Shown in pieces: positions 36,788-60,794 of a stretch of DNA of 64,000 bases. Location of the stretch: NCBI GenBank assembly GCA_938030705.1, contig CALHIR010000001.1, positions 62,001 through 126,000 on the forward strand, read 5' to 3'. Positions within the stretch are counted from its first letter, which is position 1. Each line of letters starts with the position of its first letter. Source of the DNA: Candidatus Poseidoniaceae archaeon. Lineage in GTDB: Archaea; Thermoplasmatota; Poseidoniia; Poseidoniales; Poseidoniaceae. The translations under genes and the position numbers were made by a program. The notes under the pieces were generated by a model. It had not been told where the DNA came from, made no database searches, and worked only from the letters and a program-made list of their open reading frames with translations.

Positions 36788-37042
36788 TTAACCACCGCTG
36801 ACGGGCGGGAGAAGGGCCAATTCAATGCCTTCTTCCACCACCGTCTCCATGGTGCACCGGTGGCCGTTGACGGCCACGGACAAGCCGAAAGAAATCCATT
36901 CACGCAAGTCCATTCCCTCCACCACCTCTCGCACGGTTGAACCGGACGGGACCTCGATGGCATGTTGCCGGCCACCAAGTCGTTCGGCAATCGGTCCAAA
37001 CGCCATGATGCTGATGCCCACCGTGTTGTCGTCCTTGGCCAT
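36788..37042 (-). CDS. MoaD/ThiS-like ubiquitin-fold sulfur carrier
   Basis: An 84-residue beta-grasp protein ending in Gly-Gly (LLPPVSGG), the mark of sulfur carrier proteins that are activated as thiocarboxylates for molybdopterin synthesis or related thiolation. Internal features fit MoaD (SIMAFGPIAERLGGRQHAIE; STVREVVEGMD; VAVNGH). The start at the ATG at 37042 removes an unrelated upstream extension of the open frame. The partner MoaE was not seen nearby, so the pathway is inferred from the fold only. Confidence 0.87.
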   Translation of the reverse strand: MAKDDNTVGISIMAFGPIAERLGGRQHAIEVPSGSTVREVVEGMDLREWISFGLSVAVNGHRCTMETVVEEGIELALLPPVSGG

Positions 37043-37093
37043 GAGGTGTCTTGTGGGCAGGGATTTATGAATACAATTCCCTTTGGTGAAACC

Positions 37094-37798
37094 ATGACCC
37101 CTGCGCTTCAAGCCAGCCAACTGTGGAAACTCTACCAGGCGGGCGAGTCCACCGTTGAGGCTGTGCGTGGGGTTGACGTTGTCATCCAATCAGGTGAAAT
37201 GGTGGCGGTCATGGGTCCTTCTGGATGCGGAAAAACAACCCTGCTCAACATTCTCTCGGGTATTGATGAACCGACATCCGGGATGGTGGCGGTGAACGGT
37301 CAACCCCTTTACGGCATCTCCGACGACGCTCGTACCGATTTGCGGGGGAAGCACTTCGGTTTTATTTTCCAAGACTTCAACCTCCTTCCGGTTCTCTCCG
37401 CCGTGGAAAACGTGGAGTTGCCTTTGCTCCTCAACGGAGATACACCTCAAGAAGCACGCCAGCAAGCGATGAAGGCCTTGGACAAGGTTGGCCTTGGCGA
37501 CCGAGGCGAACATCGTCCCGCCGAACTTTCTGGAGGCCAACAGCAACGGGTGGCTGTCGCTCGTGCCATCGTTCACCAGCCTTCCATCATCCTGTGCGAC
37601 GAGCCCACGGGGAATTTAGACAACACCACGTCGGCCGAGGTCATGGCCCTGTTGACCGAAATGAATCAGGCACAGGCGACGACTTTTCTCATCGTCACCC
37701 ACGATGCCAACATCGCTTCACAGTGCCAACGCACCATCACCATGAGCGATGGCTCCATTCTCTCCGACGCGACTTCCACCCCTGCTGAGGAGGAATGA
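37094..37798 (+). CDS. ABC transporter ATPase (MacB/LolD-type)
   Basis: Energises the large permease encoded next to it. The 234-residue protein has Walker A GPSGCGKTT (about residues 41-49), the Q-loop FQDFNLLP, the signature LSGGQQQRVAVARA, Walker B IILCDEPTGNLD and the switch His (VTHD). The extra GNLDN after Walker B is usual for the MacB/LolD group that works on FtsX-type permeases by mechanotransmission. The ATG at 37094 follows GGTGAAACC; an in-frame ATG at 37067 is possible. The permease ATG overlaps its stop by 4 nt. Confidence 0.95.
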   Translation: MTPALQASQLWKLYQAGESTVEAVRGVDVVIQSGEMVAVMGPSGCGKTTLLNILSGIDEPTSGMVAVNGQPLYGISDDARTDLRGKHFGFIFQDFNLLPVLSAVENVELPLLLNGDTPQEARQQAMKALDKVGLGDRGEHRPAELSGGQQQRVAVARAIVHQPSIILCDEPTGNLDNTTSAEVMALLTEMNQAQATTFLIVTHDANIASQCQRTITMSDGSILSDATSTPAEEE

Positions 37799-40700: not shown

Positions 40701-42384
40701 CTTCGGATTGATCGGTCTGTGCACCGTTGGGTTGTTGGTGTCCGGTCTTGAGGGAACCTTGTCCTACGCCATCTACGTCCTGTTCGGCGTGGGTTTAATC
40801 TTGCTGTTTACGCCCCTTTTCACTTGGCAGTTGCCGGTTCTTTTCACCCGACATCAACCGGTGAACCGCTGGACACGCTACGCAGCCCGCAACACGCTCG
40901 GGGCCATCGGTGTCATGTTTTTGTTCTGGACATTAGCGCTTGCACCGGTTGATCCTCTTCGCCAGCGAATGGAACCCAACGAGTTGGCCTTCATCGTCTT
41001 GGGCCTCCTCCAAGTCTTTGCAGGGGTTCTGGTGTTGACGAGCATCGCCCCACAAGCGGTGGGGTGGTTGGCCAAGCGTCCGTGGCTCACCCGGCGAACA
41101 GGACCGGTGGGTTCGGTCGCCTTGGCTCATCCATTGGCTCATCCCGTTCGAACTGCTGTTGTCATGGGCATGTTCTCCATCACGATGTTCTCGGTGGTGG
41201 TGTTGGCGGGCTATACCGAACAATTTGACACCTATTCTTCCGATTTCGTGGAGGAGGCAGAAGGGGAATTTGAGTTGTTGCTCACCTCCTCCCGCGCTCG
41301 CCCCATCGATTTGGAATCCGATCCTTCAGCTTGGGGTATTGACCATGCAGCCATGGCCAACATCGATGCGGTTGGTGGTGTTTATCGCTCACCGGTTCAC
41401 CTCGAAGATGCTGATGGGGAGCGAATGCCGTATCTGTTGAGAGGGGTTGATGAGGGTTTTCTTCAGCACGGTGGGCTCCCTCTCCACGCATGGAATGCGA
41501 GCCTTGGAGACACGTCTGACGAAGCTTGGAATTCAATGGCTTTTTATGAAAATATTGTCTTCTTAGACGCTTCGTTTGGCCTTGAATCTGCAGCGGATGG
41601 TTCCACCTTGGTGCCTCTTCAATTTTCAATTGGAGATTCAATTTTGTTAATTGATTTTTCAAACCCGAAAAACACCCGTGAAATGACCGTTGGTGGTTTC
41701 CTCAAGCAGTCGTCTTACATCTTTTCTCCTGGGGTCTGGTTGAACGGCGATATCGTCGCTGAACAGTTCGGTGGAGAGATGACGAGAATGTACGTGAGTG
41801 TATCTCTGGAAGCAGTGCCAAGTGAGGGCCATGAACACCAAGGCCTCCCCGCTCAAGGGAAGTCCACGAACGTTCGAGAAGCGGCCGGTGAACTTGAATC
41901 GGTTTTGGATGTTGAACTGGCTTCAAAGAACATCAACGTACAGACCGTGGCGGATGAGATTTCCATCATCCAGTCGTTGGTGCTTGCGATTTTATCGCTC
42001 TTCGAAGGTTATCTTGCGCTGGGTTTGCTGGTGGGTGTGGCGGGCATCGGGGTGGTCACTGTTCGGAACGTGAGCGAACGAAGGGCGACCATTGGGATGT
42101 TACGCGCTGTGGGCTTCCGTCAACGACATGTACTCCGTCTCTTCTCAATTGAGGTCTCTTGGGTGGCGTTACTTGGCATGCTCAACGGCTTGGTGATCGG
42201 CTACGGGTTCCATGTGGTTCTTTACAAGGCCGTTTGGGAAGCCGAAGGTGCTGAATTTTCATTCCCTTGGGCCGGCACCTTGGGCCTGTTCCTCCTCGGT
42301 TGGGTCATCGTTCTCATCACCACCTATGTCCCCGTTCGCCAGGCTTCAAAAATTCCCCCTTCGGCTGCCTTGCGGAGCGCGTGA
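37795..42384 (+). CDS. Very large FtsX-like ABC permease with two FtsX modules
   Basis: A 1529-residue membrane protein. It has N-terminal helices (LVSACALVLLLSMVSLF and further, to about residue 85) and a MacB-type start helix near residue 103 (SALMIAGLIIASSIITSSLV). An extracytoplasmic region of almost 700 residues follows, then a first FtsX module (FGTFTMAAGVLLSLTIIMLL; RRTELAAVRALGLRRSD). Further helices and a second extracytoplasmic domain come next. It ends in a second FtsX module (YLALGLLVGVAGIGVVTVRN; RRATIGMLRAVGFRQ). Typical bacterial FtsX permeases are 400-850 residues. It probably exports or releases a lipid-linked or secreted substrate at the outer face. Around 41.5-41.7 kb base composition is more AT-rich than the neighbourhood. 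Confidence 0.9.
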   Translation: MSVLYWLVSACALVLLLSMVSLFTARRWREWSWGQRLLLIFTGPVDGVLVGLLLAWLGASDVTVAAGSVLFGTMSMLFVQPLLVPQRLLVWRLAKENILRRRRQSALMIAGLIIASSIITSSLVVGDSLDATVGQEVRAAWGETDVLIAGMNPMTGITVEFDEALAERFWQTLLTNPSLSEGLDGRQYGVSSSVSLAAENGLAEPSVPFFAQNASVDDEGVWAPLGVSSGLRFSDIEALNEQGDTLHVVINTAAAEALEVSEGDVLELGAFVTEEGERIRTSSSVLVHAVVANEGQGAMAGTRSPAVFTDLGSAQTLLGLQGSITRLSLAYDSGLDDEELRTRLPGLEAMMNTSLTAEDAGVVWTLDEATDALTVSSGVGLQRVDGADVMALRENKSTLYPDAALLEVLQVPLIDVQHANEALLTLADADITQLRMGQDAWWHVALSGIGFEPLDGGDAWLWQVDDGDRLVDVAWSDDASSAVYLNEKKVHLADVLLEEEGERASFETALPPVAVDGEDDAWWVLASNGSSLEVLEFDLNLSLRTSTSIGLSLPSTVLSYDLRVEGDLYLRMEGLLNTLHYRSTDGATFEEIAAVDWPGESSSSPELLPDACDGVAAVLYDEDRLLCTFEHGVLRWGLGAEAVESIRLPVLSDAAGFGRLPQMVLAFGGEGAVLEVEKGQVLTSARLEALHLTNDSNLSMTGVLPYAYGNDTATVLLHGGTYPSVEGFDQLADLDGVVLGLVSLPDAEVLALAQPDDRSLLMFSGPGFGSTNTSSLLAVQAWFDQQSGIEDVHLRVQAVQLDASEQAEASSGALSAMFLVFGTFTMAAGVLLSLTIIMLLADVRRTELAAVRALGLRRSDTRALFVYEGAVLAFVSGGLGSVLGLGLAWVISVGFSTIFSSVGAQQFVFSWTLDSFLAGWFWGALLALLLLWSSAVYNAQLNIVRALRGARPMLKRGVPWGVVLLQVLAFGLIGLCTVGLLVSGLEGTLSYAIYVLFGVGLILLFTPLFTWQLPVLFTRHQPVNRWTRYAARNTLGAIGVMFLFWTLALAPVDPLRQRMEPNELAFIVLGLLQVFAGVLVLTSIAPQAVGWLAKRPWLTRRTGPVGSVALAHPLAHPVRTAVVMGMFSITMFSVVVLAGYTEQFDTYSSDFVEEAEGEFELLLTSSRARPIDLESDPSAWGIDHAAMANIDAVGGVYRSPVHLEDADGERMPYLLRGVDEGFLQHGGLPLHAWNASLGDTSDEAWNSMAFYENIVFLDASFGLESAADGSTLVPLQFSIGDSILLIDFSNPKNTREMTVGGFLKQSSYIFSPGVWLNGDIVAEQFGGEMTRMYVSVSLEAVPSEGHEHQGLPAQGKSTNVREAAGELESVLDVELASKNINVQTVADEISIIQSLVLAILSLFEGYLALGLLVGVAGIGVVTVRNVSERRATIGMLRAVGFRQRHVLRLFSIEVSWVALLGMLNGLVIGYGFHVVLYKAVWEAEGAEFSFPWAGTLGLFLLGWVIVLITTYVPVRQASKIPPSAALRSA

Positions 42385-42578: not shown

Positions 42579-45500
42579 ATGAAGAATATGACACCTGTAA
42601 TCCTCGTGATGATGTTGCTGACGAGTTTCCTCGCCGGCATCACCGTGCACGAGCTTGAAGAAGAAGTGGTAATCGACGAAACCGGCGCACGCTCTGGAGC
42701 GGACGCAACGGTGGTTGCCATCACAACGCCAAAAGAAAGTACGTGCAACGACCAGGGTTGCCGCAACACCCTTCAGGTGGGCGAGGAGACCACGTTCTCT
42801 GCGTTCATCAAGAACGACGGTGATGTTGACGTCACTGAGATGTCCTACACCGTCACCGTTTACCTCACTGACTCGAGCGGCGCTGTCGGCGGTGTGGCCA
42901 AGGATGCAACCGGTAATGATTTGATCTGGGAAAACGCCAACGTCATGTGCGATGACATCACCGTTTGTCTTTACGACGGCACCACTGACCCAATGGCATC
43001 CGGCGCTTTCCTCGGCGGCGGTAAATCCACCCTCCAACTCGATGGCGGCGGTGGCGACATCACGTGGACTCCTACGCAAGGTGAGTACATGGTCGAGATC
43101 TCTGTCGGTGCTCCCGGTGATGTTGACACGTCCAACAACGCTGAACTCGTCTATGTTCTCGTTGAAGACTGGTATGACATCGAAGTTGACCTCGTTTGGG
43201 TGGCCGACATCGGAAACGGCGGCCCCGAAGAACTGGAATCGTCTTCCTTTGACGCCAGTTCAACCGAGGGCGATATTGACTTCAAGTTGAAGGTCACTGC
43301 CGATGGTTCGGATACCTTCAATCCCCGAGATATCACCGTTCGTCTCTCGCTTTCCGGTCAAGCCACGGGTCAAATTGGTCCCGGTGGTGATACGCTTACG
43401 GTCAACGACGTGGTTGCAGGAACCACAACGACCGTTGACACTTATGCAAACGAATCCGACCCGAACGCAACGCTGACTGGCAGCCGTGCCGTCGTCTCTT
43501 ACCAGACGACTTGGGAAATCTCCGGTGCCATCACGCCCGGTGTCCAATCGGACTCGTCGTGGGAACTCACGGCCGAGTTGGTTGAATACACCATGTACGG
43601 ACAATTCGACGAATGTGTTGAATCCACTGAAGCCTCCGAGGGGGATGAAAACGTCACGACGTGGATGAACTTTTGTGAAGTTCAACAATCCGATGATGAC
43701 CGGCCGAAGACGGACTCGGACATGATTTCAGGAAGTACCGATGTGTACGACGACATTCGCATCTCTCGCATGGGCGTCTATCAAGGGTACAACTCTGACT
43801 GTACCGGCGTCGCTTCCACCTTCACACAGCAGGGTGAGGACGGCGACCTCAACGTCGGTTGTTCACTCGTCTATGCTGATGTTGAACACCGTGGCAGTAA
43901 AATGACGAAGGAATACGGCTGGAACGTCTCCTACACCGTTTCTCACGAGGGCCAAGAATTGGCCAACGGCGTGTTGACGGAATGCATGGGAGGGGTTGAC
44001 GTCCCTTACACGTGGTCCCCATTGGGTATCATGGGCGGTTCGGTCTGCATGTTCACGGACATGGTTCCCGGTGAATACACCATCGACTTCAGCCTCCAGA
44101 TGAACAACAAATCCAGCACGGATACTGACCCCGTTCCTTGGGCTGGCGGTACCGACATGCGACCCAGCAACAATGATGTGACCATGGTCGTGGATGTTGT
44201 GAACAACCTCCCAGTGATTACCTCCTTTGAGTTGACCACTGAGGGCGACATCGTTGTCGGGCAGGAAGCTGACCTGGTCTTCGCAGTCTCTGCCTTTGAT
44301 GTGGACGACCCCTCGGGTGAGAGTCTCAACTTCACCTATTCTTACCCAGGTGGCATTATTGGCACCTGCGGTGAAAAGTCGCAATTCGATGGTGGCACCA
44401 TTTGTACCTCGCCGGTCTTGCCTGACTTCATAGGCAACTCACCGGTCACTGTGGTTGTTAAGGATGCTCAAAACGACTCCGTTTCTGAAGAGATCGACCT
44501 GTTCGTTTGGAACAGGGCTGTTGCGACGGCGACCACCGACGCCGGCGTTGAAGTCCAGTACAGTCTTGATTACAACGGTCAGTCCGAGTTTACCATCGAC
44601 ACGCTGACCGATAAGGATGCAAGTTCCTATGACGCTGTTCAACTCGAAGGTTTCAGCGGCACCTATGCTGCCGTGGCTGCTATGGACTACGAGCCGAGCT
44701 CAACCTACACGGCCAGCGACGTGCTCGACCAGTCGATTTCGGTGATTGTCTCCAAGGACCTCGAAGCTACCTCCCTCTGGTACATCGATGGCTCGGGCAA
44801 GTGGATTATTCTGTCCAACGCCCCAACCGATGTTGACGCCAGCACCGAGATGTTCACCTACGACGTCCCCGACAACACCCCGGTTGTCCCGGCAGGTACG
44901 ATGGTTCTCATGGGCGGTGAACTCGCTCAAGCCACCATCCCAGACGCCTCCGTCAGCGGATTCAGCGCAGAAGGAACACGTGGTGGCGCCATCGCCATGT
45001 CATGGGACATCACCGGAACCCTGCTCGGATCTGACAGCATTCGTGTTTGCATCAGTCCCGGACAAGCACTCAACCTTCCCGACTGCCCAGGGGCGTTCAA
45101 TGCGACCGTCGAGGACGAAGTCCGTACCTACACCTACAGTGGTACACAAACCACGCACGGGGAAACCTACCATGTTGAAGTCGCCGTTTGCAACGAGCAA
45201 GGTTGTTCCACACCAGGAATCGCCAGCGTTGTCGCTGACAAGCAGGTCGACGGCGATGTCGCAGCCACCGATGTTTCTGTCGGCGAAGAAGACGGTCAGT
45301 GGGTCGTCCGCTGGACCATCCAGGGCGATGCAAGCGATGTGGCCATGTGGCATGTCTGCTGGTCAACTGATGACTTCACCGCCGGTGAAATGCCAACACC
45401 TTGTGATGACGCCGCCATGGGCGCCGATGCTACAACTGCCAGCATTGACATGCCTTCCATCCGCACCGGCCAACAGTACTTCTTCACCGTCGTACCCATG

Positions 45501-45749
45501 GACGACCTCGGAAACATGGACGCTGCCGAAGCTCAAACCGACATCAGGGACAACCGTGTTGCTGACAACAGCAACGTCAATGACGGCAACGGTACCATTG
45601 GCGACACAGGCGACGATGCGTCTTCCAGCGTACCAACGTGGACCTGGGGCCTCATCGGTGGCGTGGTCATTGTAGCGTTCATCGCAGGTGCTTTCATCCT
45701 CTCTCGTGGAGACGGTGAAGGCGGCGAAGGCAAAGACTGGGATTACTGA
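42579..45749 (+). CDS. Large secreted, C-terminally anchored surface protein (CARDB/FN3-like)
   Basis: A 1056-residue protein with a signal peptide (MKNMTPVILVMMLLTSFLAG). The extracellular part is long, acidic and Thr/Asp-rich. Two CARDB-like modules (FSAFIKNDGDVDVTEMSYT; SVGAPGDVDTSNNAELVY) occupy about residues 60-200. A middle region with paired Cys follows, and FN3-like modules (GGAIAMSWDITG; GQWVVRWTIQGD) lie at about 800-1010. It ends in one membrane helix (TWGLIGGVVIVAFIAGAFIL, about 1025-1044) and a short GEGGEGKDWDY tail. It has its own TATA box and a strong terminator, as expected for an abundant envelope protein such as an S-layer-like component. That role is inferred. Confidence 0.87.
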   Translation: MKNMTPVILVMMLLTSFLAGITVHELEEEVVIDETGARSGADATVVAITTPKESTCNDQGCRNTLQVGEETTFSAFIKNDGDVDVTEMSYTVTVYLTDSSGAVGGVAKDATGNDLIWENANVMCDDITVCLYDGTTDPMASGAFLGGGKSTLQLDGGGGDITWTPTQGEYMVEISVGAPGDVDTSNNAELVYVLVEDWYDIEVDLVWVADIGNGGPEELESSSFDASSTEGDIDFKLKVTADGSDTFNPRDITVRLSLSGQATGQIGPGGDTLTVNDVVAGTTTTVDTYANESDPNATLTGSRAVVSYQTTWEISGAITPGVQSDSSWELTAELVEYTMYGQFDECVESTEASEGDENVTTWMNFCEVQQSDDDRPKTDSDMISGSTDVYDDIRISRMGVYQGYNSDCTGVASTFTQQGEDGDLNVGCSLVYADVEHRGSKMTKEYGWNVSYTVSHEGQELANGVLTECMGGVDVPYTWSPLGIMGGSVCMFTDMVPGEYTIDFSLQMNNKSSTDTDPVPWAGGTDMRPSNNDVTMVVDVVNNLPVITSFELTTEGDIVVGQEADLVFAVSAFDVDDPSGESLNFTYSYPGGIIGTCGEKSQFDGGTICTSPVLPDFIGNSPVTVVVKDAQNDSVSEEIDLFVWNRAVATATTDAGVEVQYSLDYNGQSEFTIDTLTDKDASSYDAVQLEGFSGTYAAVAAMDYEPSSTYTASDVLDQSISVIVSKDLEATSLWYIDGSGKWIILSNAPTDVDASTEMFTYDVPDNTPVVPAGTMVLMGGELAQATIPDASVSGFSAEGTRGGAIAMSWDITGTLLGSDSIRVCISPGQALNLPDCPGAFNATVEDEVRTYTYSGTQTTHGETYHVEVAVCNEQGCSTPGIASVVADKQVDGDVAATDVSVGEEDGQWVVRWTIQGDASDVAMWHVCWSTDDFTAGEMPTPCDDAAMGADATTASIDMPSIRTGQQYFFTVVPMDDLGNMDAAEAQTDIRDNRVADNSNVNDGNGTIGDTGDDASSSVPTWTWGLIGGVVIVAFIAGAFILSRGDGEGGEGKDWDY

Positions 45750-46150: not shown

Positions 46151-49100
46151 ATGTTGGGAAACAAGAAAAATAAGAAAAAGACCGTCTTCGGCGGTATCGG
46201 GGTTGCACTGTTGTTGTGCGCATTGATGGTGCTCATGCCAATGAGCGGCTATGTGAATAACGACGAGAAAACGGCAACCGTGGAGTCTGTGGAAGCAGAC
46301 TCGACTGGAGCAGAGGATTACTTCGCGCTCCCCGAAAAGCTCGCTGAAGCAGATTACGAATACGACCCATCGCTTGAACTACAAGGGATGCGAGACGCCA
46401 AGACCAAGGCCTTCCTCAATGAGGATGGCACGATTACCCAAATGGTGGCCAATGAGCCTCTCCATTACATGTCGGGTGACGGAACTTGGGAAGACATTGA
46501 CCTGAACATTCAGGCCTACCCAGAGGGTTGGGGAGTCACGGAGAACACCTTCATGACGTACTTCGCCCCTGAAGTCGCTAACGGTATCTCGGTACAGGCA
46601 AACGAGTTTGTTGACCCGTTGATCTCCGGTATCAACCCCATGCTCGTGACCCTTGATGTGTCAGGCTCTGCTCCTGAGCCCTTCATCGCACCTCCTGCCT
46701 CCAACGGCGTGGACGTCGGTGGAAACGTCATCCGCTATCCACTTGCAGAAGGATACGACTTGGACTACTCCGTTGAGAGCACCCAGGTCAAGCAGAACCT
46801 CATTGTCCGTGAGGCTCCCGTCCTCCCAGAGGCTGCTGAGTACTTCGGCCTCAGTGAAGGCATGCGCATGCCCGTTGGCTATGCCCTTTTCTCCGGTGAA
46901 ACGATGCTCGGCGAAGAACTCTTCAAGACGCAAGAAGACCTTCAAATCCGCCATATCGAAACCGGCGAACTTCTCGCTGAAATCCCTGCTCCAATGATCA
47001 TGGAAGCAGGTTCGGAAGAACCCTACACGGGGACCTTCTTCGTTCAAGTCTACGGTCCTGAGATTCTCCTCATCACCGTGGTTGAAACCGACTGGCTCCT
47101 CGATGAAGACCGCGTTTACCCGGTCGCCATTGACCCGTCGATCCGTGTGAACTCCGCCACCGGTGGCTACTGCTACATCTACTATGCTTACTGCTACACC
47201 AGTTCCTACCGATACCACTACCGCTACTACGGTTCCTACTACTACATCCCGTGGCACAAGTACACCTTCACTTCCTCCACCGCCCTCCCAAGCGGTGCTA
47301 CGGTCGACAAGATCGAGTGGAAGAAATACATGAGCTACGCCTACGGTTCCACCCGAACCTTCCAAGTGAAGGTTCTGGAATCCTGTGGAATGGCGCCTCG
47401 CTATTCCTACAGCATGGGAAGCGGTTCATGTTCAGGCTCAACCCTAAGCGCCTCCTACATGGCCCGAAACTACGGTGGGACGGCCGCTCGCAGCCTCAAG
47501 GCATCGATCGGTCTCTCGCCATCTGCAGCCACGGTCAGCAGCAGCGGTACCGGTTGGAAGACCGTGAATCTCTGCAACTCGGCCACAGCTTGTGGCGCTA
47601 CTTCCGGTGGCGTCTCCATCATTACCAACGCCCTGAACAACGCAGGAACCGTCGGTATCGGAGAATATTACACCGGTGGAAGCACGTACTTCTACACGTA
47701 TGCCTACGCTTCAGGAAGCCGCAACTCTCACCTTTTGGTCACCTATTCTGGTGGTACGGATGCCGACGCCCCAACCTCGGATTTCGTCCCCTACACTGGA
47801 ATTGATTCCTACATTGAAGGTGAGCGAACGCTCTTCATCAAACTGACCGACATGTCAGGTATTGACACCACCTCCTCGGGTGCTCCTCAACTCTATTACT
47901 CCACTGACGGTGGCAGTTCATGGAGCAGCACCACCTACGGATTGGGCTCCAACAACCAATTCGACGCAGGTGAACTCGTCTCTATTGGAACCTGTTCCAG
48001 CACCGCCACGGATTGCCGATTCAAGGCTCGTGTTGACGACTTGAGCTACGGGGATGATTTCCGATATTACTGGAAGTTCCAAGACCTCAACCAAGGCAGC
48101 AACGGCGCCAACGTAGGCTACGAACCTGCCCTCACCGGCACGCAAACATCGCCAACGCCCTACCAGGTTGACATCGTTGACCCGGCCAACGCACCTACGT
48201 CTCACAAGAAGATGACCGTGTTGACCACCGACGTTCACGCTGGTAGCTACTACAACCCACAAGGTTTCCTTGACCGACAGATGACCTATTACAGCGATTC
48301 GGACGAATACTTCTTTGAATTCGACACCTCAAGTTGCGGTACAGGTTCCTCGTCGTGTTTCTACACGGGAACCAGCACCTTTTACGCCAACTGGATTGCT
48401 CGCGGAAGCACCGCGCCTGCCACCGGATACTACGGCATGAACAGCGGTACCAACAAGTTCAACCAAAACTTGTGGAACAACAACGGTGATGGGTATTTGC
48501 AAGTCAGTGCAAAGGACGGCCCTGGAATGAACGTGATTTTCGTTTACAACAGTGCCAAGAACGCATGGGCGACCGTGGGTGTTGACACCGAAACCGGCAT
48601 TGACACCCCCCTCACAGGCGGTAGCAAGGCTTCATCCAGTGTCTCCTACGGCTACTCACAAGCCTACAAGTTCGCCATCCCCGGCGACATCACCGGTGAT
48701 TTCGGAACGTTCAAGTTCAACTCGACGGGAAGTTCCACAACCGCCAACCGAATGTGTGTCACCACCAACGGATGGTATTACTTCTACCGTGCAACATCCT
48801 ACGACCGATGTACATCTGCCTACTACATGATCTACGGTTCTACCTCCTCCTACCGATGGAGTGGTTTCGCCCTCGGCTCTGGCTACTACGGTCGCCAAGC
48901 CTCCACCGGTGACATCACCTACAAGGTCGGCAACGTCGCACCAACGCCAGATACCTTCAAGCCTGAAATGACGCACAGCGCCATGCAGGATTCCCACGCC
49001 AAGAGCCGTACTGTGTCCGTTTCCATTATTGATGGTGGCGACCCAGCCTCTGGGCTCAACGTGAGCAGTGCTGCAGGTACCGGTCCTACGCTTTACCACC

Positions 49101-52100: not shown

Positions 52101-55100
52101 CGGCGACCTCTTCGCCGGTCATCACCATCAAGGACGCCGGTTTCTTGACCGCGAACAACGATGGTACCTCTGGAAGTCCTGCGGCTATTCGTGCAGTCTC
52201 TTCAACCTACGGCATGCACATTGACATCCAAAACGGTGGAACGCTCACGCTTGACAACGCCAACATGCGAGATATCGCTTGGGACACCACCACTGAATCT
52301 GCGCTTTACATCGGCAACGGTGCAACGCTGAACATGATGGATTCTGCCACCATCTTCGGGGCATCCGCTACCGCTGATGAGATGGCCACGGTGAAGATTC
52401 AAGGCGGTTCAGCCAACATCGATTCCTCCAGCATCATCAACACCGGGCAAACCGGTACAGCGATCTGGATTGAGAACTCCGGTGCAACGCTCTCTGACAT
52501 CATCGTCAAGAACGCAGCCATTGGTATCCAGAGCTACAACGGCGCTCCTCAAGTTGATGGATTTACGTCAAACGGCAACACCGTTGGTATCAACGCCTAC
52601 GGTGGCATGTCGCTGCCGACCATCTACCGCAGTACGTCGCTCTCAGGCGCAACGGCAGGTTGGACCACCTACAAGATTGACTTGTCCACCTACTTGGGTA
52701 CAGGCGACTACTTGCAAGTTGGTGCCAACTCCGTTTTCGCTGGTGGAAACGCACACCCAAGCTATAACTATGCCACGAGCAAGTATTACTTCATCACCGA
52801 CCGAATGAACATCATGTTCGAGGACGATTCTGGAAACGCTTGGAACATCACCGACAGCAGCCAGGAAGGTTACTACCCCTACGGTAGCAACGATCCAGCC
52901 GTCACTGCGAACACGCACACCTACAACGGTGGTGACGGTGGTGCTCCATCTTGGCACTGCAACTACTACGGCTACGACTACGGTCCTAACTACGGTTCCT
53001 ACGAGGGCTATTACTACTACCTCTACCGCTACTGGCTTGGTCAATCCGTCAGCTGGCCCAACTACTACGATGCTCCTGATGAGTTCGGATTCAGTTGGGA
53101 ATCCACGGATTTCAGTCCAACTGGAAACTACCAATCCCGCTACCCATACAAGTACTGGGGCTACTACTCTCCCTCCTTCTACTTCGGCGGTGTTTACGCA
53201 CCACCCGAGGGAGGCAACGGACAACCTTCCACAGGACCAGGTCAACCCGGAAACGTAGGAAACCCACCAAGCTATGCTTCAGGTGGCTACCCCAACAATT
53301 ACGGTGTCTGTCTTGATTACGCCTACACCTACTACATGAACAGCGGTGAAGGTGCTCGAATGACTTACCCTGTGGTTGACATCTCCAGTGCTACTGCCAA
53401 CGGCGGAAACATCTCCAAGGTCTACCTTTGGATGGATGTGCTTCACCGCGGTGCAGACAACTACCAAGACCGCTATGACTTCGTGGCCCGTTCAGGCAAC
53501 GACCCAAGCGATTTGGGCGATTACGTCCGCGAATCCGGTACGCCTTTGTTCAAGGAAGGCACCATCACGGGCGCAGACACTGGTATTGAGATCGGTGGCG
53601 CATTCGCCGCTGGCCATTTCGAAGACATTGATGTCGTCGGACCATCCCAGGCAGGTCTTGAAGTCGTTGGACAAACAGCGGCCTCTGCCAACCGTCTGAA
53701 TGTTTCGAGCGGTAACTACGGTGTCCTCGTGGCCAACACGGCATCCGGTCAGATTGACCTCGACAACCTGGATTTGGAGAACCAAGCCGTGGCTGGTATT
53801 TACTACCAAGCCGACCTTGGTGGCGATTTGACGGGTACCTTCACCGGTTCCGCCGGTGCAGCCTTCAAGTACGCCTCACGCACATCGGCGACGGTTGAAT
53901 TGGCAAACATGAACATCGAGAACAACGCCGTCGGAATTGAGACCGATGGCTCGGGAGATTTCACCCTCACCGATGTTGTCATGTCCAACACGAAAGACGT
54001 GCTCATCACGGGTTCATCCACCATGGAATTCGTTGAAGGTACGATCGACACTTCATCGGTTGAAGTCACCGGCAGCGGTGAATTCACACGACTGCGCCAA
54101 GTTGACATCACCCTTCAGGCCAACGTCTCTGGCGTGGCCGAAGATGTGGACGGAACGACGGTTATTCTGAAGGATGCCGAGGGAGCGGTGACTGGCATGG
54201 CTGAAACCGATGCCAACGGCGTTGCTAACGACATTACCTATGTGACGCAGACGATCAACAGTGGCGCTTGTTCAAGCATTTGTGTGTCGAACCTCAATGG
54301 CTACGAAGCCGTTGCCTCTGCCACAATTGCTTATTCATGGACGAACAGCAACAGCAACGAAGCCGACTTCCGATATGTCTTCCACTCCATGAGTCTCACA
54401 GACACCTCGGGGAACGCCGATACTGTGTACCTTGAAGATGAATTTACGGCTCGTATCTGCTACTCCTCAACGGCTTACATCAAGCAAGATCGCTGCGCCA
54501 GTGGTATCTCTTCCACGGGCAGCCGGACTTTCACGAACGGATTGGTCGAATACGGCTATCTTCGAAGCCACAGCGGCAACGACCTTGCGGGCGAGACCAT
54601 CATGATGGACGCACCGTTCATGTATCTGGCTCAAGGCAAGCACAACTGGAACGGAAGCACCTGGATTTCAACCGCTTCGTACGACTTTGAAGGAAACAAC
54701 CGAATGTACCCATACTACAGCGGTGAATCCTCCCTCTACATGCACGATGCAAGTGTCACGGCCGTTGCCGTTTCGAGCTCTGGTGTGCCTCAAGGGTTTA
54801 CAGTGGGCTACCGCTACTACTCGTTGAACGTGGACATGGACAACACCACCATCTCCGGTGTCGCATCAGTGATTGGTGCTATGGGCTACGGTTACTACAA
54901 CCAGTACGAATTGGACTTCTTCAAGTTGACCAACAACACCTTCGTTCACTACAAGGGCTACACCGAATTGAACAATGCCATCAACCTGGGCGACATTTGT
55001 GTCATCATGAACGGTGGCGATGGAAACATCATTGACAACAATAACTTCGTTGATTGTGGTGTTGGTGTCTTCTCCGAGCGATCTCCCTACTACTACACCC

Positions 55101-58100
55101 ACAGCACCAATGAGATCGGTACCGACAACCTGACAGTCACCAACAACGTCTTCAACGACGGTGGTGAAATTGCAGATGTCTGGCTTTACAACAGCAACGA
55201 AGCTCAAGGTGTAACCATCACTGACAACGAGTTCAACCCATCCAACGGACACGCTGTGGCTATCTACAACGGAAAGACTGAGGATGTTTTGATTCAAGAC
55301 AACACCGTCGAAGGCGGCGATGACGCCTTCTACCTCAACCGTGTGACTGACTTCACCATCGACAACAACGACATCGGCGGCATCAGCGACGATACCTCCA
55401 CGGGCGTTTACATCTTCCGTGGCAGTGGAAACATCACTGACAACACGTTGACGGACGCTGACGGTGGAATTTACCTCGACAGCATGGAAGCTCCACCATC
55501 ACCAACCAGTTCACTCTGTTCGATTGGCAGCAGCGACTACCGCCGCTCAACCAGTTGTTCCTGGAACCTTGCCTCTGGCAAGTCCGCTGAAGTGAACCTC
55601 GGCACCGACAGTTGGGGCTATGAAATCAGCCTTGAAATCACCAAGCCTGATGGTTCAAAGGACTCATGGCCGACCTACTCGTTCAGCAGCAACACCAACT
55701 ATGCTCCTCTCCGAACCTATTCGGATGCTGGAAACTACACCCTCGTGGTCTCTGACTCATGGGGCGACGGCGGTGCTACGATCACTGTTCTTGAGTCCAG
55801 CGGCAACAGCGGTTCTTACGCTGGACCCGATGTCAGTGGCAACACCATCGGTTTGTCCACCGGTCGAACTTCGCCCAACGCTGTTGGTATCACGGCTACC
55901 TCGTGTTCCTCCGTGGCTATCCAGTCTGCTTCGAACACCATTGACCTCGGCGATAACGCCGTGGTCATCGAAGACTGTGATTTCAGCGATGTTGGCTCCA
56001 CCCTTACCGGTGATGGGCTCTCGTCCACGGTCGGTATCCTCGCCGATGACACCAACAGTGTCCTGACCCTGAACGGTACGGACATCAGTGGCTACGCTAC
56101 CGGTGTGAGCAAGGAAAACGGCGATCTGTTCATGATTGGCGATGCTTCCATCGCAGGTAGCGACTACGGTGTGTATGCCGAAGATACCTATGTTGTCGCC
56201 ATTGACGCTCATGTCGATGGTGGGAGCACCGGTACCGGTCTCCACGTGGTCAGCAGCCCAGATGTTTGGGTCTACCCAATGGACGCCTCTGGTCTCGTTG
56301 GAATGTATGTTGAAGACACACCGTTCCGCTGGGACGGTGGTGTTGCAGACGCAACCACGGCTCTGTCTGTGGTTGATGCAACAGGTACTGTTGAGAACAT
56401 GACCTGGTCAGCAGCTTCCACGCAAGTGAACGCCGGCAACAACGCCCATGTCACTTCAATCGGCAACACGCTGAACCCCAGCAAGATTGTCGTGGCCAGT
56501 TCGGCCGTCATTGACGAAGCCAACCTCATGAGTATTGAGTCCACCCACTTGGGTGCTGCACCTTCCAGTGAAGTTGGTCTTCTCCTGATGTCGACCGATG
56601 ACGAGCGTGCTTCGTACGTCTCCACTTCCTTCCAACCTGAGGCCATGACGGTCGATGGTTCGGATGAAGATTGGAACGGCGGAAACGCCCTCAACCCATC
56701 CGGCTACGCTATGCCTGGTGTGATGAGTGGCGACGGCACCGACGACTTCATGGTGACGTACATCGAAGGCGATGGCCTCTACCTCGGAATGACCAACACC
56801 GACCTGTCCACCTCAGACGTTTTGATTTACCTCAACACCGGTAGCGGTGGTTCCGATGTTGGCTACAACGGCCTCGGCGGCGCTCACAACTTGCCCTTCA
56901 GCGCAAACTACGTGTTGTGGGCTGACAGTGATGGCTCATACGACCTCTACAGCTACGGCTTCCTCGGATGGAGTCCATCCTCCTTGAGCACGGCCAACGT
57001 TGACGTGGACGTTTCCACCTCGCTCGCTGAGTTCGGTCTTCCATGGAGCCGCATTGGCGGCATGCCAGACGAAATCGACATCGTTGCCATCGTTCAGGCT
57101 GAAACCACGGCCGACATCGATGTGGTTCACCCAACCCAGACCTTGGACAGTTCTGCTACCCTGCAGAACCTCTCCAAGTTCATGACCGTTGAGTTGACCC
57201 ACGGCGACCTTGCTGACGGTACCTTGACCTCAGAGGTCTTGGTTTACCAATCCTACAAGGGCAGCACGACGGCGACCGGTCAGAAGAACTACGACTTGAT
57301 GATCAAGACGCCAGCTGCTTGTGCCTACGATTGGGCCACCGTTGAGGATATCTCCTTGGCCACCAACGTTGTCTTTGACGACAGCTATGTGGCTGGAACC
57401 GGCGACACGACCAACGTCCAGAGCACGATCGACATCGCCCGAGCCTGTCCAGTCATCGATACCGATGGCACGGACACCAACGACGGTCTTGTCGACTTTA
57501 GCCGAGATGAAGACTCTGGTGCTTTCACCTTCAGCCTGACCGACTTGGCTGACGATGTGCAAGATGAAGAGTCCTCCTTGACGTGGACGATGACAGAAGG
57601 AACAATGGTTTCGTTCAACAACAACGACCTCCTCGACAGCGCCCTAAACGGCCAAGACGTCACATTGACGCCTAAGGCTGACCAATTCGGTACCATGGTG
57701 TTCTCCTTCGAGGTCACTGACAGCAACGGTTTGACCGACGACCACAACATCACCTTCACGGTGAACAACATCAACGACGCGCCGGTCATCTGCAATGTTG
57801 AGCGCTCCGACTGTATGCCTATATTCTCTGAGGACGAGGAAAACTACAACATCCTCCCAGAAGGCTTCGGCACCCACACCAAGTTCCTTGGCGATGTGTC
57901 GAACGCCACCCGATCGTACATCCGAGATATGGCCAACGAGCAGGCTCCTGTTCGCCAAGTTTACACCTGGTCCGCCAGCGCTGTGGACCTTGGCACCTCA
58001 GACGACTGTTCTGCCTTCAGTGTGGGCATTCAGAACAACGAACTGGCCATCACTGAAAACACCAACAACGAGTTGGGTGGAAAGTGTACGGTCACGCTCG

Positions 58101-59989
58101 GTCTTGCTGACGACGGTGCTGAGAACCAAGACGCTACCACCTTCGACGTGGTGTTCTCGGTTGCTCCAGTCAACGACGCTCCGGTCATCAAGGATTGGAA
58201 CCGCTCGACTGACACCGTGATGGTGGCTGACAACGGCTCGATCCCTGCGCTCCCATGGTCCATCTCCTTGATGGAAGATGACGAGAATGTGGCGAACCTG
58301 ACCTACGACCTTTCGGCTATCAAGGCTGACGTTGACCACGAGTTGGATGACTTGACCTGGACGGTTGAATCCACCGACCAGTGTGTTTACACGAACTACT
58401 TCACCACGACCATCGTCGGTGATGACATCGTGTTCGACCTGATTGAGGATGCAACCACCAACGCCAACGACTGGGAGATTGACTACCTCAACAACAACGG
58501 TATCCACCAGATTGGTCCGTCCGGTTCAGAGTTCTGTCAGATCCGCTTGGTCCTCCGAGACACACCAACGGCGCCCATTACTCAAGGCGAATACAACACC
58601 TTCGTGCCAAACTACGACAACGCCACAATGGCCATTGCAAACTACCAGCAAGGTGTTGCTACGAAGGAAATCGGTGTTCGTGTTGAGAACGTCCGTGAGC
58701 AGGTCCCAGACTACTACTTTGACGACCAGCTTGGCTTCGACTTCAACGGTGTATCCAACATCATGCCCGGAACTTACGTCCCGGTCAGTGTCACCGTGAA
58801 CGGTGGTGGCGATGAAGGCCCGTACCGATACGACCACATGTTGGCGATCACCTACCACTCCGACGGTCACGATGATGTCGAGTTGACTCGCTACTACGAT
58901 GTCCCCGATTACGGTGGAAGCGTGAAGTTCACTGAGGATGTTTACATCACCAAGGACACTTCTGAAATCTGGATTGAGATGGATGTTTTGACCTGTGTGC
59001 GCCTGCCAGCCGATGGCGGTTGCGACATGTCGGTGACCACGGCTGACCGATTCCAGGAAGACGAACCAGGATCCCACTACGCCATCATCAACAACGTGCA
59101 AAGTGACGACCCATGGTCCAAGCCCGGTCAATACGGCAAGAACGCTACGAAGACGTCGGAACGCCGACCTCTCCTCCAAGACAGCAACTGGTGTAACAAC
59201 ATCATGACCTCGCTTGCTACTGCTGATGTGTGTAACCACGCTAACCAGCCGGCCAGCAACTTCTTGGCAGTGGACCAACCACTTCCAACGGTTGTCAACA
59301 CCATCGGTTCTTCGGCCGTTCCATCGTTCGCCCCAAGCATTGTCGCTGTGGCCCTCACGGGTCTCTTCGTCAGTGCGCTCTCCTTCGCCAGCCGCCGTGC
59401 TGATGACGAAGAAGAAGTGGAGACGATGGCTGAAGACGACGCTGCCGTCAGCCCTGTGATCGCTACCATCCTGATGGTGGCCATCACCGTGGTGCTGTCC
59501 GGTGTCATCTACGTGTGGGCTTCCAGCCTCGCCGAAACCGACGTGAAGGGTGTGCCTCGTTTGATCTTTGATATCGAAGATGTCAACGCCTTGGACTCCG
59601 ATGAAGGTCACTGGCAAATTCGTGTTTCACAGACACAAACTCCGCTTGCGACACAGGCAGTTGAAGTGAAGATCCTTTACACCAACTCCACTGGCGCACT
59701 GGTGACGCACACAGCGAACCTTGGCGACAGTTCAGGTGTTTACGGATTCAGTCCAAGGAACAGTGATAGCTTTGTCACCTTTGCAGACTCTGTGTCGATT
59801 GAGGGAAGCGGTGAAGGCATCCGTTCAGTCTCGACGTTCAACACTGGAGACACCATCTTCGTGCGCACACACGCTCCTGACGGTACACCTCTTGAAGGTG
59901 CAACCATCACGTTGAGCTACTCACCACTTGTTGGTGACTCTGCGCTGTTGGCCAAGTGGGACAACCTGGACTACGACAAGCGACCCTGA
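46151..59989 (+). CDS. Giant (4612-residue) surface protein with beta-helix, Tyr-rich and cadherin-like modules and a C-terminal pilin domain
   Basis: Approximate domain order by residue: signal/anchor 1-35 after a Lys-rich start; a wall-protein-like N-domain to about 330 ending YPVAIDPSI; a Tyr-rich patch 338-375; a DNRLRE-like beta-domain to about 535; Ig-like units; a nidogen-like segment near 1064 (FVVEWRDMAYYTYGQ). Then comes a long right-handed beta-helix region about 1330-3500, interrupted by a second Tyr/Gly/Pro-rich stretch 2268-2400 and a pre-peptidase-like domain 3117-3217 (DSWGDGGATITVLE). A DOMON/CBM9-like unit follows (about 3500-3670, TVDGSDEDWNG), then cadherin-like repeats to about 4220 (NDAPVI twice). 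It ends in a membrane helix 4396-4414, a short charged linker and a pilin helix 4433-4457 with a beta-rich head. Own promoter and terminators. Likely a long surface adhesin or envelope fibre; target unknown. Confidence 0.93.
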   Translation: MLGNKKNKKKTVFGGIGVALLLCALMVLMPMSGYVNNDEKTATVESVEADSTGAEDYFALPEKLAEADYEYDPSLELQGMRDAKTKAFLNEDGTITQMVANEPLHYMSGDGTWEDIDLNIQAYPEGWGVTENTFMTYFAPEVANGISVQANEFVDPLISGINPMLVTLDVSGSAPEPFIAPPASNGVDVGGNVIRYPLAEGYDLDYSVESTQVKQNLIVREAPVLPEAAEYFGLSEGMRMPVGYALFSGETMLGEELFKTQEDLQIRHIETGELLAEIPAPMIMEAGSEEPYTGTFFVQVYGPEILLITVVETDWLLDEDRVYPVAIDPSIRVNSATGGYCYIYYAYCYTSSYRYHYRYYGSYYYIPWHKYTFTSSTALPSGATVDKIEWKKYMSYAYGSTRTFQVKVLESCGMAPRYSYSMGSGSCSGSTLSASYMARNYGGTAARSLKASIGLSPSAATVSSSGTGWKTVNLCNSATACGATSGGVSIITNALNNAGTVGIGEYYTGGSTYFYTYAYASGSRNSHLLVTYSGGTDADAPTSDFVPYTGIDSYIEGERTLFIKLTDMSGIDTTSSGAPQLYYSTDGGSSWSSTTYGLGSNNQFDAGELVSIGTCSSTATDCRFKARVDDLSYGDDFRYYWKFQDLNQGSNGANVGYEPALTGTQTSPTPYQVDIVDPANAPTSHKKMTVLTTDVHAGSYYNPQGFLDRQMTYYSDSDEYFFEFDTSSCGTGSSSCFYTGTSTFYANWIARGSTAPATGYYGMNSGTNKFNQNLWNNNGDGYLQVSAKDGPGMNVIFVYNSAKNAWATVGVDTETGIDTPLTGGSKASSSVSYGYSQAYKFAIPGDITGDFGTFKFNSTGSSTTANRMCVTTNGWYYFYRATSYDRCTSAYYMIYGSTSSYRWSGFALGSGYYGRQASTGDITYKVGNVAPTPDTFKPEMTHSAMQDSHAKSRTVSVSIIDGGDPASGLNVSSAAGTGPTLYHRITPDGGSAGSWTSTSMSQEAGKTRAQCALAACTWSADIEDLEVNDTVEYYFKAQDVSTVSQGINTNTSSTYSFERGDPNKVFVVEWRDMAYYTYGQLCTVQALFYDVTNEIEYKYDSNCRTTYNSWSIGYMDQTRQKGASIAHSSSTSFNTNPGHVPTTSNFRISTSSSSHAWESFDKGLVEVSNADTALTGTSNGRPYLYYCISSYYWNTYKARCNANIDIPAGFEFEYFGTTYDGDDSNDRIQLSRQGSMYFISNGNTNVERNLWTYHQPALPYSGSSLARPGTIAPFWTGYNQYYCYVTSSQDCSTYYRVMPYEGKGTDVTADITSDPVWDLTDSPIRINPSNDYLVVSSDLTIKPGVQILVAPGKGISFDGSCTKMTALGNATHPINFTGMNGGEWTGMAFTDDCTTTGGTDDRHQYSYVNFNNTTDAVFRSGSRHDNTGPSCGSATADCNTGNYTMSDVTFTNVGAVFTHGSGQGTVVTMEDFSIDGADEACFNFPENTIATLKEGSIKNCNTDGKSWGGTIVNYPGSTAGALHAENLTVENSYVNFIDVDLQHVTVSNVSVTNPSAQTGVAIDSMYGSNSNVVIHNVDADSYANSGINAMGSILMTDVDLGSADLWLIPGGWSQTGNGPSSSNAVFDTITAGDITMQRMHPGTFTDITAEDVSMSGSSIVTETLEMDNWDMDAFTVSGCGWTMILDTPSFESFKSSCSSSSAKNQISINDATIAHGASSAHVIDGRNTHITLGESSITSTGVSSGTTEVAKARSGTNVVLIDVDLNGNDCSDSNGDTGNCAYDVSSSSSNPSMLYFGGLANVSVYRLSQSTKVYKADHTVTASLLDGSMNELFQVGRHTTDSNGNTSVWVVVEDSDGTAYEDHIVRAFGTAGQNETYPEDFPDITLRSSWYPTNGYTWGTHLDLLLEPAPITFNDPALNCYKLINDGFYTGQQMSTGGYDLTGNYDSNTNTFTFDDTSITVSADLMLDTCGFELQGGSLRVLSTATSSPVITIKDAGFLTANNDGTSGSPAAIRAVSSTYGMHIDIQNGGTLTLDNANMRDIAWDTTTESALYIGNGATLNMMDSATIFGASATADEMATVKIQGGSANIDSSSIINTGQTGTAIWIENSGATLSDIIVKNAAIGIQSYNGAPQVDGFTSNGNTVGINAYGGMSLPTIYRSTSLSGATAGWTTYKIDLSTYLGTGDYLQVGANSVFAGGNAHPSYNYATSKYYFITDRMNIMFEDDSGNAWNITDSSQEGYYPYGSNDPAVTANTHTYNGGDGGAPSWHCNYYGYDYGPNYGSYEGYYYYLYRYWLGQSVSWPNYYDAPDEFGFSWESTDFSPTGNYQSRYPYKYWGYYSPSFYFGGVYAPPEGGNGQPSTGPGQPGNVGNPPSYASGGYPNNYGVCLDYAYTYYMNSGEGARMTYPVVDISSATANGGNISKVYLWMDVLHRGADNYQDRYDFVARSGNDPSDLGDYVRESGTPLFKEGTITGADTGIEIGGAFAAGHFEDIDVVGPSQAGLEVVGQTAASANRLNVSSGNYGVLVANTASGQIDLDNLDLENQAVAGIYYQADLGGDLTGTFTGSAGAAFKYASRTSATVELANMNIENNAVGIETDGSGDFTLTDVVMSNTKDVLITGSSTMEFVEGTIDTSSVEVTGSGEFTRLRQVDITLQANVSGVAEDVDGTTVILKDAEGAVTGMAETDANGVANDITYVTQTINSGACSSICVSNLNGYEAVASATIAYSWTNSNSNEADFRYVFHSMSLTDTSGNADTVYLEDEFTARICYSSTAYIKQDRCASGISSTGSRTFTNGLVEYGYLRSHSGNDLAGETIMMDAPFMYLAQGKHNWNGSTWISTASYDFEGNNRMYPYYSGESSLYMHDASVTAVAVSSSGVPQGFTVGYRYYSLNVDMDNTTISGVASVIGAMGYGYYNQYELDFFKLTNNTFVHYKGYTELNNAINLGDICVIMNGGDGNIIDNNNFVDCGVGVFSERSPYYYTHSTNEIGTDNLTVTNNVFNDGGEIADVWLYNSNEAQGVTITDNEFNPSNGHAVAIYNGKTEDVLIQDNTVEGGDDAFYLNRVTDFTIDNNDIGGISDDTSTGVYIFRGSGNITDNTLTDADGGIYLDSMEAPPSPTSSLCSIGSSDYRRSTSCSWNLASGKSAEVNLGTDSWGYEISLEITKPDGSKDSWPTYSFSSNTNYAPLRTYSDAGNYTLVVSDSWGDGGATITVLESSGNSGSYAGPDVSGNTIGLSTGRTSPNAVGITATSCSSVAIQSASNTIDLGDNAVVIEDCDFSDVGSTLTGDGLSSTVGILADDTNSVLTLNGTDISGYATGVSKENGDLFMIGDASIAGSDYGVYAEDTYVVAIDAHVDGGSTGTGLHVVSSPDVWVYPMDASGLVGMYVEDTPFRWDGGVADATTALSVVDATGTVENMTWSAASTQVNAGNNAHVTSIGNTLNPSKIVVASSAVIDEANLMSIESTHLGAAPSSEVGLLLMSTDDERASYVSTSFQPEAMTVDGSDEDWNGGNALNPSGYAMPGVMSGDGTDDFMVTYIEGDGLYLGMTNTDLSTSDVLIYLNTGSGGSDVGYNGLGGAHNLPFSANYVLWADSDGSYDLYSYGFLGWSPSSLSTANVDVDVSTSLAEFGLPWSRIGGMPDEIDIVAIVQAETTADIDVVHPTQTLDSSATLQNLSKFMTVELTHGDLADGTLTSEVLVYQSYKGSTTATGQKNYDLMIKTPAACAYDWATVEDISLATNVVFDDSYVAGTGDTTNVQSTIDIARACPVIDTDGTDTNDGLVDFSRDEDSGAFTFSLTDLADDVQDEESSLTWTMTEGTMVSFNNNDLLDSALNGQDVTLTPKADQFGTMVFSFEVTDSNGLTDDHNITFTVNNINDAPVICNVERSDCMPIFSEDEENYNILPEGFGTHTKFLGDVSNATRSYIRDMANEQAPVRQVYTWSASAVDLGTSDDCSAFSVGIQNNELAITENTNNELGGKCTVTLGLADDGAENQDATTFDVVFSVAPVNDAPVIKDWNRSTDTVMVADNGSIPALPWSISLMEDDENVANLTYDLSAIKADVDHELDDLTWTVESTDQCVYTNYFTTTIVGDDIVFDLIEDATTNANDWEIDYLNNNGIHQIGPSGSEFCQIRLVLRDTPTAPITQGEYNTFVPNYDNATMAIANYQQGVATKEIGVRVENVREQVPDYYFDDQLGFDFNGVSNIMPGTYVPVSVTVNGGGDEGPYRYDHMLAITYHSDGHDDVELTRYYDVPDYGGSVKFTEDVYITKDTSEIWIEMDVLTCVRLPADGGCDMSVTTADRFQEDEPGSHYAIINNVQSDDPWSKPGQYGKNATKTSERRPLLQDSNWCNNIMTSLATADVCNHANQPASNFLAVDQPLPTVVNTIGSSAVPSFAPSIVAVALTGLFVSALSFASRRADDEEEVETMAEDDAAVSPVIATILMVAITVVLSGVIYVWASSLAETDVKGVPRLIFDIEDVNALDSDEGHWQIRVSQTQTPLATQAVEVKILYTNSTGALVTHTANLGDSSGVYGFSPRNSDSFVTFADSVSIEGSGEGIRSVSTFNTGDTIFVRTHAPDGTPLEGATITLSYSPLVGDSALLAKWDNLDYDKRP
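59426..59989 (+). other. In-frame archaeal type IV pilin module inside the giant gene
   Basis: Residues 4426-4612 of the giant protein begin MAEDDAAVSPVIATILMVAI and continue as the hydrophobic helix TVVLSGVIYVW. This is the archaeal pilin N-terminal domain with its SPVI signature, followed by a beta-rich head of about 150 residues. A class III cleavage motif (Asp-Ala before Ala-Val) fits residues 4430-4433. The internal ATG at 59426 follows AAGAAGTGGAGACG, so a separate 187-residue pilin could also be translated. Whether it is cleaved, started internally or kept fused cannot be told from sequence. Confidence 0.75.
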
Positions 59990-60062: not shown

Positions 60063-60119
60063 CTGGTGTGCTTGTTGTGCTGTGCGAAGCCTTTCAAGGT
60101 AGGCAGTGCAGGTGCCGGT

Positions 60120-60794
60120 ATGGAAGACGACCATGGACCACCCGGCATCGTTGTGTTCGACTGTGATGGCGTCCTTGTGGATGCTGTCAGTTCGTGGAGA
60201 ACACTGCACGATGCTTTTGGAACAGACAATGCGCTGAACTTGAACCGGTTTATCCGGGGTGAGATCAGCGATGTGGAATTCATGCGCTCGGACATCCAGA
60301 TGTGGAAAGCCGTTCAGGACCCCATTCACCAGGATGAGTTGTTCCGTTCCTATGCCGGCGTCAAACTGATGGCGGGAGCACGGAAAACGGTCCAACGCCT
60401 CAAGGAAGAAGGCGTCTTCGTCGCTATCGTGAGTGCGGGTGTGGACCTCTTCGTGAGTTCCATTGCGAGCATGTTGGACGTTGATGATTGGATTGCGAAC
60501 GGGTTTGTCTTTGATGAGAAAGGATACCTGACCGATGAAGGCGTTTGCCGACTCCATGCCAGTGGAAAAGGTGAGGTCATCACTCGCTTGCTGGAGATGA
60601 ACGGCTTCACGCCCGAAGCATGTGTTTCAATCGGCGATTCTGAAATGGATCTCTCAATGCAGGTGGAGGGTAGTCGTTTCATCGGATTTAATCCCAGCCG
60701 AGCGTCCTCTGAAGAGGCATTTACTCAAGCGGGTGTGCCGATTGTTCGCAACAAAGACCTTCGAGACATTCTCCCGCTGATGGGTTTTAACTGA
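60120..60794 (+). CDS. HAD-superfamily phosphatase, phosphoserine-phosphatase-like
   Basis: A 224-residue HAD hydrolase. Motif I is FDCDGVLVD (nucleophile Asp14, general acid Asp16), motif II is the Ser in VSAGVDLF, motif III is likely the Lys in SGKGEV, and motif IV is GDSEMDL. The helical cap lies between motifs I and II, as in SerB-like enzymes. Phosphoserine or another small phosphate ester is the likely substrate. The start at the ATG at 60120 gives MEDDHGPPGIVVFDCDG; the frame upstream overlaps the terminator hairpins. It stands alone between the giant gene and the sugar transporter, with 54 nt before the latter. Confidence 0.87.
   Translation: MEDDHGPPGIVVFDCDGVLVDAVSSWRTLHDAFGTDNALNLNRFIRGEISDVEFMRSDIQMWKAVQDPIHQDELFRSYAGVKLMAGARKTVQRLKEEGVFVAIVSAGVDLFVSSIASMLDVDDWIANGFVFDEKGYLTDEGVCRLHASGKGEVITRLLEMNGFTPEACVSIGDSEMDLSMQVEGSRFIGFNPSRASSEEAFTQAGVPIVRNKDLRDILPLMGFN

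Follow-up and report, generated by a model that had tools for sequence, protein, structure and literature searches.

In-frame fusion of a giant surface protein to a type IV pilin in Poseidoniales, a possible two-part precursor

Few archaea of the surface ocean are as common as the Poseidoniales (Marine Group II), which are, to our knowledge, uncultured. A 64,000-nt stretch of DNA from a Candidatus Poseidoniaceae archaeon (contig CALHIR010000001.1, positions 62,001 to 126,000; hereafter the window) carries a single gene that seems to yield a pilus subunit as well as a giant surface protein, its predicted product of 4612 residues ending in an archaeal type IV pilin. The questions raised by this locus were whether the fusion is real and whether the pilin is cut from the giant protein or stays tied to it. 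Sequence and predicted structure formed the evidence base throughout. Based on all comparisons, it was proposed, with a probability of about 0.5, that the gene encodes a two-part precursor which would be cut into an anchored giant protein and a free pilin.

The 4612-residue reading frame described in the initial annotation was found to be real, containing no internal stop and having full-length homologues, which were 65-89% identical when from the same genus and 33-52% identical when from other genera. The nearest named homologues came from metagenome-assembled genomes of Poseidonia and other Poseidoniaceae, which places the window in or very near Ca. Poseidonia. Only three strong helices were recognized by hydropathy, at residues 11-29, 4396-4414 and 4436-4454. 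Pfam Pilin_N (PF07790) matched residues 4432-4473 above its gathering score when the whole protein was searched (E 1.3e-6), and the last 200 residues alone gave an E-value of 2e-7, while NCBIfam TIGR02537 matched the same end above its cut-off (E 2e-8). Because both models agreed, the pilin signature claimed in the initial annotation was confirmed as not being a chance match. An AlphaFold2 model of 464 residues contained an anchor helix, a pilin helix and a beta head, the latter two giving the lollipop fold of archaeal pilins; the model was of moderate quality, with a predicted local distance difference test (pLDDT) score of 70.9 and a poor linker. Its best Foldseek matches in the PDB were the archaellum of Oxiplasma (Thermoplasmatales) and the Cuniculiplasma pilus, both with low TM-scores. 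The 17-18 residues between the anchor helix (TM1) and the pilin helix were mostly acidic.

Hydropathy and the pilin models agreed on the order first reported, in which a stop-transfer helix is followed by an acidic linker and then by a pilin, and the topology proposed with it (ectodomain, membrane, cytoplasm, membrane, pilin head outside) was judged to be supported as a prediction. The class III signal is internal, after residue 4432, and not at the N-terminus of the protein. The description of the giant as a beta-helix protein held for the modelled residues 2740-3330 only (pLDDT 84.9), for which parallel beta-helix tailspikes, PL6 lyases and PfbA were retrieved by Foldseek. The segment of residues 3786-3882 was matched by NF012211 (E 3e-8) and Big_9 (E 1e-3), each below its own cut-off.

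The sequence is metagenome-derived, and the fusion might be an artefact of assembly or frameshift, or a recent pseudogenisation. To examine the gene in relatives, 30 homologous C-termini were aligned and those of 71 further loci were read, 101 loci in total, covering about 15 genera and two families. The same in-frame fusion was present in 101/101 loci, always as SFxP, anchor helix, basic residues, acidic linker and AVSPVIAT in a single frame; one of these loci came from G060, a single-contig genome of 2.06 Mb. The linker differed in length among the loci, always by multiples of three. With many independent assemblies agreeing in frame, the artefact was refuted in practice, and its probability is negligible. 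Nor was a separate pilin gene, which the initial annotation had named as the finding in close relatives that would speak against the fusion, encountered in any of the 101 loci, and the fusion stands. When an ectodomain profile was searched over 244 genomes of the class, no unfused giants were found, weak matches of 1e-7 to 1e-9 in small-genome lineages of family f2 being left out. No match was obtained in the phage records searched.

In a tree of pilin domains, a fully supported branch separated all fused domains from the stand-alone ones. Because the fused domains form one clade, the data fit a fusion that arose once, before the two families split. Loci from related metagenome-assembled genomes (MAGs) are not independent events, so that the universal fusion counts as one event kept, not as many. 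Paralogous giants of 5100-5500 codons, likewise ending in a pilin, were observed at G090:C28, G110:C135, G152:C35, G159:C9 and G231:C30.

Further, the anchor segment was compared with other proteins. A profile of the SFxP motif, helix and basic residues recovered an unrelated, conserved surface protein of about 620 residues in five genomes (L131-L135), which shares the terminal VPSFAPS-TM-basic signal with the giant and ends 26-32 residues past the start of its VPSFAPS-type motif. Because the same anchor terminates this second protein, it can presumably hold the giant in the membrane alone, and the giant resembles two whole proteins in series, an anchored surface protein and then a prepilin. 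Within the order, a further large surface protein (genome G045) has an acidic cytoplasmic tail that is similar to the acidic linker. Alternatively, VPSFAPS-TM-RR might be a C-terminal sorting signal cut by a dedicated transpeptidase-like enzyme, by which the giant would be freed from the membrane and attached elsewhere, leaving TM1 and the pilin behind. The motif, helix and basic cluster resemble the known tripartite CTERM signals, and the presence of the segment on an unrelated protein in five genomes would suit such a role. However, a search of the genome for exosortase/archaeosortase (PF09721) was empty, no NCBIfam CTERM model matched the giant, and only about two proteins per genome use the segment, which makes sorting improbable. 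Surface proteins of the PGF-CTERM type also end in a motif, a helix and a basic cluster; the giant differs from them in its motif, in that no known processing enzyme was found, and in a chain that runs on into a pilin.

The cleavage site had been placed in the initial annotation between residues 4431 and 4432. A plausible prepilin-peptidase site was retained, but its position was moved by one residue. Residues A4432-V4452 were 100% identical across 58 MAG rows of the alignment, whereas the commonest residue at 4431, alanine, occurred in only 36% of them. The mature Cuniculiplasma pilin of the same phylum, solved by electron cryomicroscopy (cryo-EM; PDB 8rey), starts at the V of VSP, and this first residue aligned with V4433. 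Because conservation is absolute from A4432 and 8rey begins at the residue matching V4433, a cut, if made, is likely at A4432|V4433.

Mean conservation in the same 58 rows was 82% for the anchor helix region, 65% for the end of the ectodomain and 69% for the pilin head. Among 129 distinct DNA contexts, third codon positions varied freely (heterozygosity 0.51) and first and second positions hardly at all (0.056), a pattern equal to that of stand-alone pilins; position +10 was M or L, and a few other positions differed in family f2. Because third positions varied freely while amino acids hardly changed, this sequence pattern indicates a constraint that acts on the protein, has its precise onset at residue -1 and equals in strength the constraint on stand-alone pilins. 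A merely anchoring helix would be expected to drift like TM1.

The machinery for such a cut was then sought. The PF01478 model detected no prepilin peptidase above its cut-off in the genome. A divergent PibD was first found in relatives and then led to the genome's own enzyme, a divergent prepilin peptidase of 331 residues with the motifs WMDHK and GGADAKALM (L093:5310-6305; G000:C1:200309-201301). It was present in nearly all fusion-bearing genomes sampled, the exceptions being two incomplete assemblies. In family f2, the peptidase occurred in 4/4 fusion-bearing genomes, and the 16 genomes without it were also without the fusion. The genome further carries stand-alone pilins, whose helix is almost identical to the fused one, and an additional assembly ATPase, accompanied by a platform-like gene (G000:C10), separate from the archaellum operon, which lies within the window. 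As a separate observation, the divergent peptidase is missed by PF01478 and scores far below the FlaK_Arch cut-off, which leaves a gap in the annotation of much of the order. In genome G033, stand-alone members of the same pilin family bear very large heads (L070 and L071, frames of 622 and 701 residues); they are conventional modular pilins with the pilin at the N-terminus.

We proposed the following sequence of events. The N-terminal signal would export the ectodomain with its beta-helix part until the VPSFAPS-TM-RR anchor helix halts export; the internal class III signal would then take the chain back into the membrane, the acidic linker staying cytoplasmic. Prepilin peptidase would cut at A4432|V4433, yielding, one to one, an anchored surface protein of 4432 residues (before signal removal), possibly an adhesin, and a mature pilin of 180 residues, and the released pilin may join a type IV filament together with the stand-alone pilins of the genome. 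Cutting is favoured because alanine is invariant at -1, the constraint begins at -1 and the peptidase is present.

Several observations weigh against this proposal. By the published rules, archaeal class III sites need G, A or S at -1 and a charge at -2, the latter having been called critical (PMC4371748). The fused sites had A at -1 in 116/116 cases, but -2 was charged in only 19/116 and uncharged in the remaining 97, when the stand-alone pilins of these genomes had a charged -2 in 23/23. Taken alone, the uncharged -2 suggests relaxed processing. In addition, if cutting were all, occasional fission of the gene would be expected, and none was seen in 101 loci. The first objection was weakened by the archaellins of the same order, which, after alignment to cryo-EM chains, had an uncharged -2 (L, V, I, F, M, S or Y) in 39/39 cases from loci L311-L340 and the window. 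If these archaellins are processed as expected, the peptidase of this lineage cannot need the charge. The mostly hydrophobic residue at -2 of the inferred cleavage site in Poseidoniales archaellins is in itself a contradiction of the published charge rule for archaeal class III signals.

The main rival is a second, less probable reading, in which the pilin is uncut and tied to the anchored giant by the short linker. It would pack into the base of the filament, from which it could not be extracted, and serve as a permanent root or docking subunit. The fusion that was never split, the drift of -2 in fused and not in stand-alone pilins, and the absolute helix conservation, which packing in the filament base would also demand, are all consistent with such a tether. 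It is countered by the invariance of A4432 despite free variation at -2, the pattern that processing by a peptidase would demand, by the tolerance of uncharged -2 in the archaellins of the lineage, and by the normal action of peptidases on any accessible class III site. On this reading, the giant would be the covalent root of a type IV filament and would couple the pilus to an ectodomain of 4400 residues, possibly together with the neighbouring ABC/FtsX machine.

A free prepilin could also be made besides the giant from an internal start, as the initial annotation had considered. MAEDDAAVSPVIATILMVAI begins at M4426 of the giant, an ATG (or a nearby GTG) would serve as the start, and ATG is found there in 25/30 homologues, with purine-rich Glu codons upstream; stand-alone pilins begin about equally far ahead of their helix. 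However, the other 5/30 homologues lack the ATG, four of them (L026, L027, L028 and L034) having Ile and no usable start and L031 having TTG; no conserved ribosome-binding motif was found, and in the wider set Met, although the commonest residue, occurred in only 36% of rows. The internal ATG is therefore very unlikely to be a general route, less probable even than sorting, and M4426 may be a relic of the former start codon of the pilin.

The fusion was also compared with known systems. Modular type IV pilins, such as PilB of Streptococcus sanguinis, carry the pilin at the N-terminus and the extra module at the C-terminus, the most extreme noted having 860 residues (PMC8179133). In the giant, too, a single chain unites a pilin module with a large module that is not a pilin and may be adhesive; however, the order is reversed, a part of about 4400 residues coming first and the internal class III signal following a membrane anchor. 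The opposite order was also seen in large surface proteins headed by Pilin_N from other Thermoplasmatota (L291-L310; 900-2376 residues), which belong to the same phylum and carry the pilin-type helix at the N-terminus in 20/20 cases. Some of the pilin-headed proteins of this phylum also end in a C-terminal helix and a basic tail. The haloarchaeal and Cuniculiplasma pilins (PilA, CdiPB; PDB 8fj5, 8gi2, 8rey) share the helix sequence, the predicted mature start at VSP and the fold with the giant, but are encoded by stand-alone genes. Substrate-binding proteins of the Sulfolobus bindosome are large, are not pilins and carry a class III signal (PMC4371748); in them the signal is N-terminal, with no ectodomain or anchor ahead of it. 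The open-access literature searched gave no example of a pilin that follows a complete, anchored surface protein, in line with the initial annotation, which knew of no such fusion. The component families are known; what appears to be new is their order and the internal position of the class III signal.

The neighbourhood of the giant (Table 1) was read in 14 loci of relatives from both families. The upstream surface protein of the 1056-residue type and the downstream HAD phosphatase each adjoined the giant in 13/14 loci. L079 was the exception for both: its stretch starts with the giant, downstream of which no HAD match was seen. Wherever the stretch extended far enough, the FtsX permease was present. 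By gene order, the giant is part of a cluster conserved in both families, and the neighbouring ATP-binding cassette (ABC)/FtsX machine may act on it. Beyond the phosphatase, at 60849-63473, the window encodes a fusion of a substrate-binding protein and a permease (SBP_bac_8 + BPD_transp_1, 874 residues), the counterpart of which in L077 consists of two adjacent reading frames of 476 and 427 residues.

Table 1. Features of the window, with their positions in the 64,000-nt stretch and the basis of each assignment
Feature	Position	Strand	Basis
Two archaellins, uncharged -2	17030..18201	+	alignment to cryo-EM chains
ABC-type ATPase, first gene of the cluster	36962..37798	+	PF00005
Large FtsX-type permease, 1529 residues, conserved upstream gene	37795..42384	+	PF02687
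Surface protein, 1056 residues, signal segment and C-terminal TM, no pilin, immediately upstream	42579..45749	+	conserved; hydropathy
Giant surface protein-pilin fusion, 4612 residues	46151..59989	+	stop-free reading frame; full-length homologues in relatives
N-terminal hydrophobic signal segment, residues 11-29	46181..46237	+	hydropathy; Sec signal inferred
Ectodomain parallel beta-helix part, residues 2740-3330	54368..56140	+	AlphaFold2, pLDDT 84.9; Foldseek
Immunoglobulin-like/tandem-95-like domain, residues 3786-3882	57506..57796	+	sub-cut-off NF012211, Big_9
VPSFAPS motif ahead of anchor helix, residues 4390-4396	59318..59338	+	S-F-x-P invariant in alignments A2/A3
Stop-transfer (anchor) helix TM1, residues 4396-4414, then RR	59336..59392	+	hydropathy; AlphaFold2 helix
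Acidic cytoplasmic linker (predicted), residues 4415-4432, ending [D/E]-x-A	59393..59446	+	in frame in 101/101 loci
Pilin alpha-1 helix, residues 4433-4462, from proposed mature N-terminus V4433	59447..59536	+	Pilin_N; invariance; 8rey start
Pilin head domain (beta sandwich), residues 4463-4612	59537..59986	+	AlphaFold2; Foldseek to archaella, archaeal pili
HAD-family phosphatase, conserved downstream neighbour	60066..60794	+	profile match; loci of relatives

Particle attachment of Poseidoniales has been argued mainly from archaellum genes (PMC6461757). That two families have kept the giant and the pilin fused in one gene suggests an attachment system linked to a pilus, which was unmentioned in the literature searched. 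A class III signal placed internally, after a stop-transfer anchor, would widen the known range of prepilin-peptidase substrates, and the unreleased pilin, if true, would be a previously unknown way to anchor a filament.

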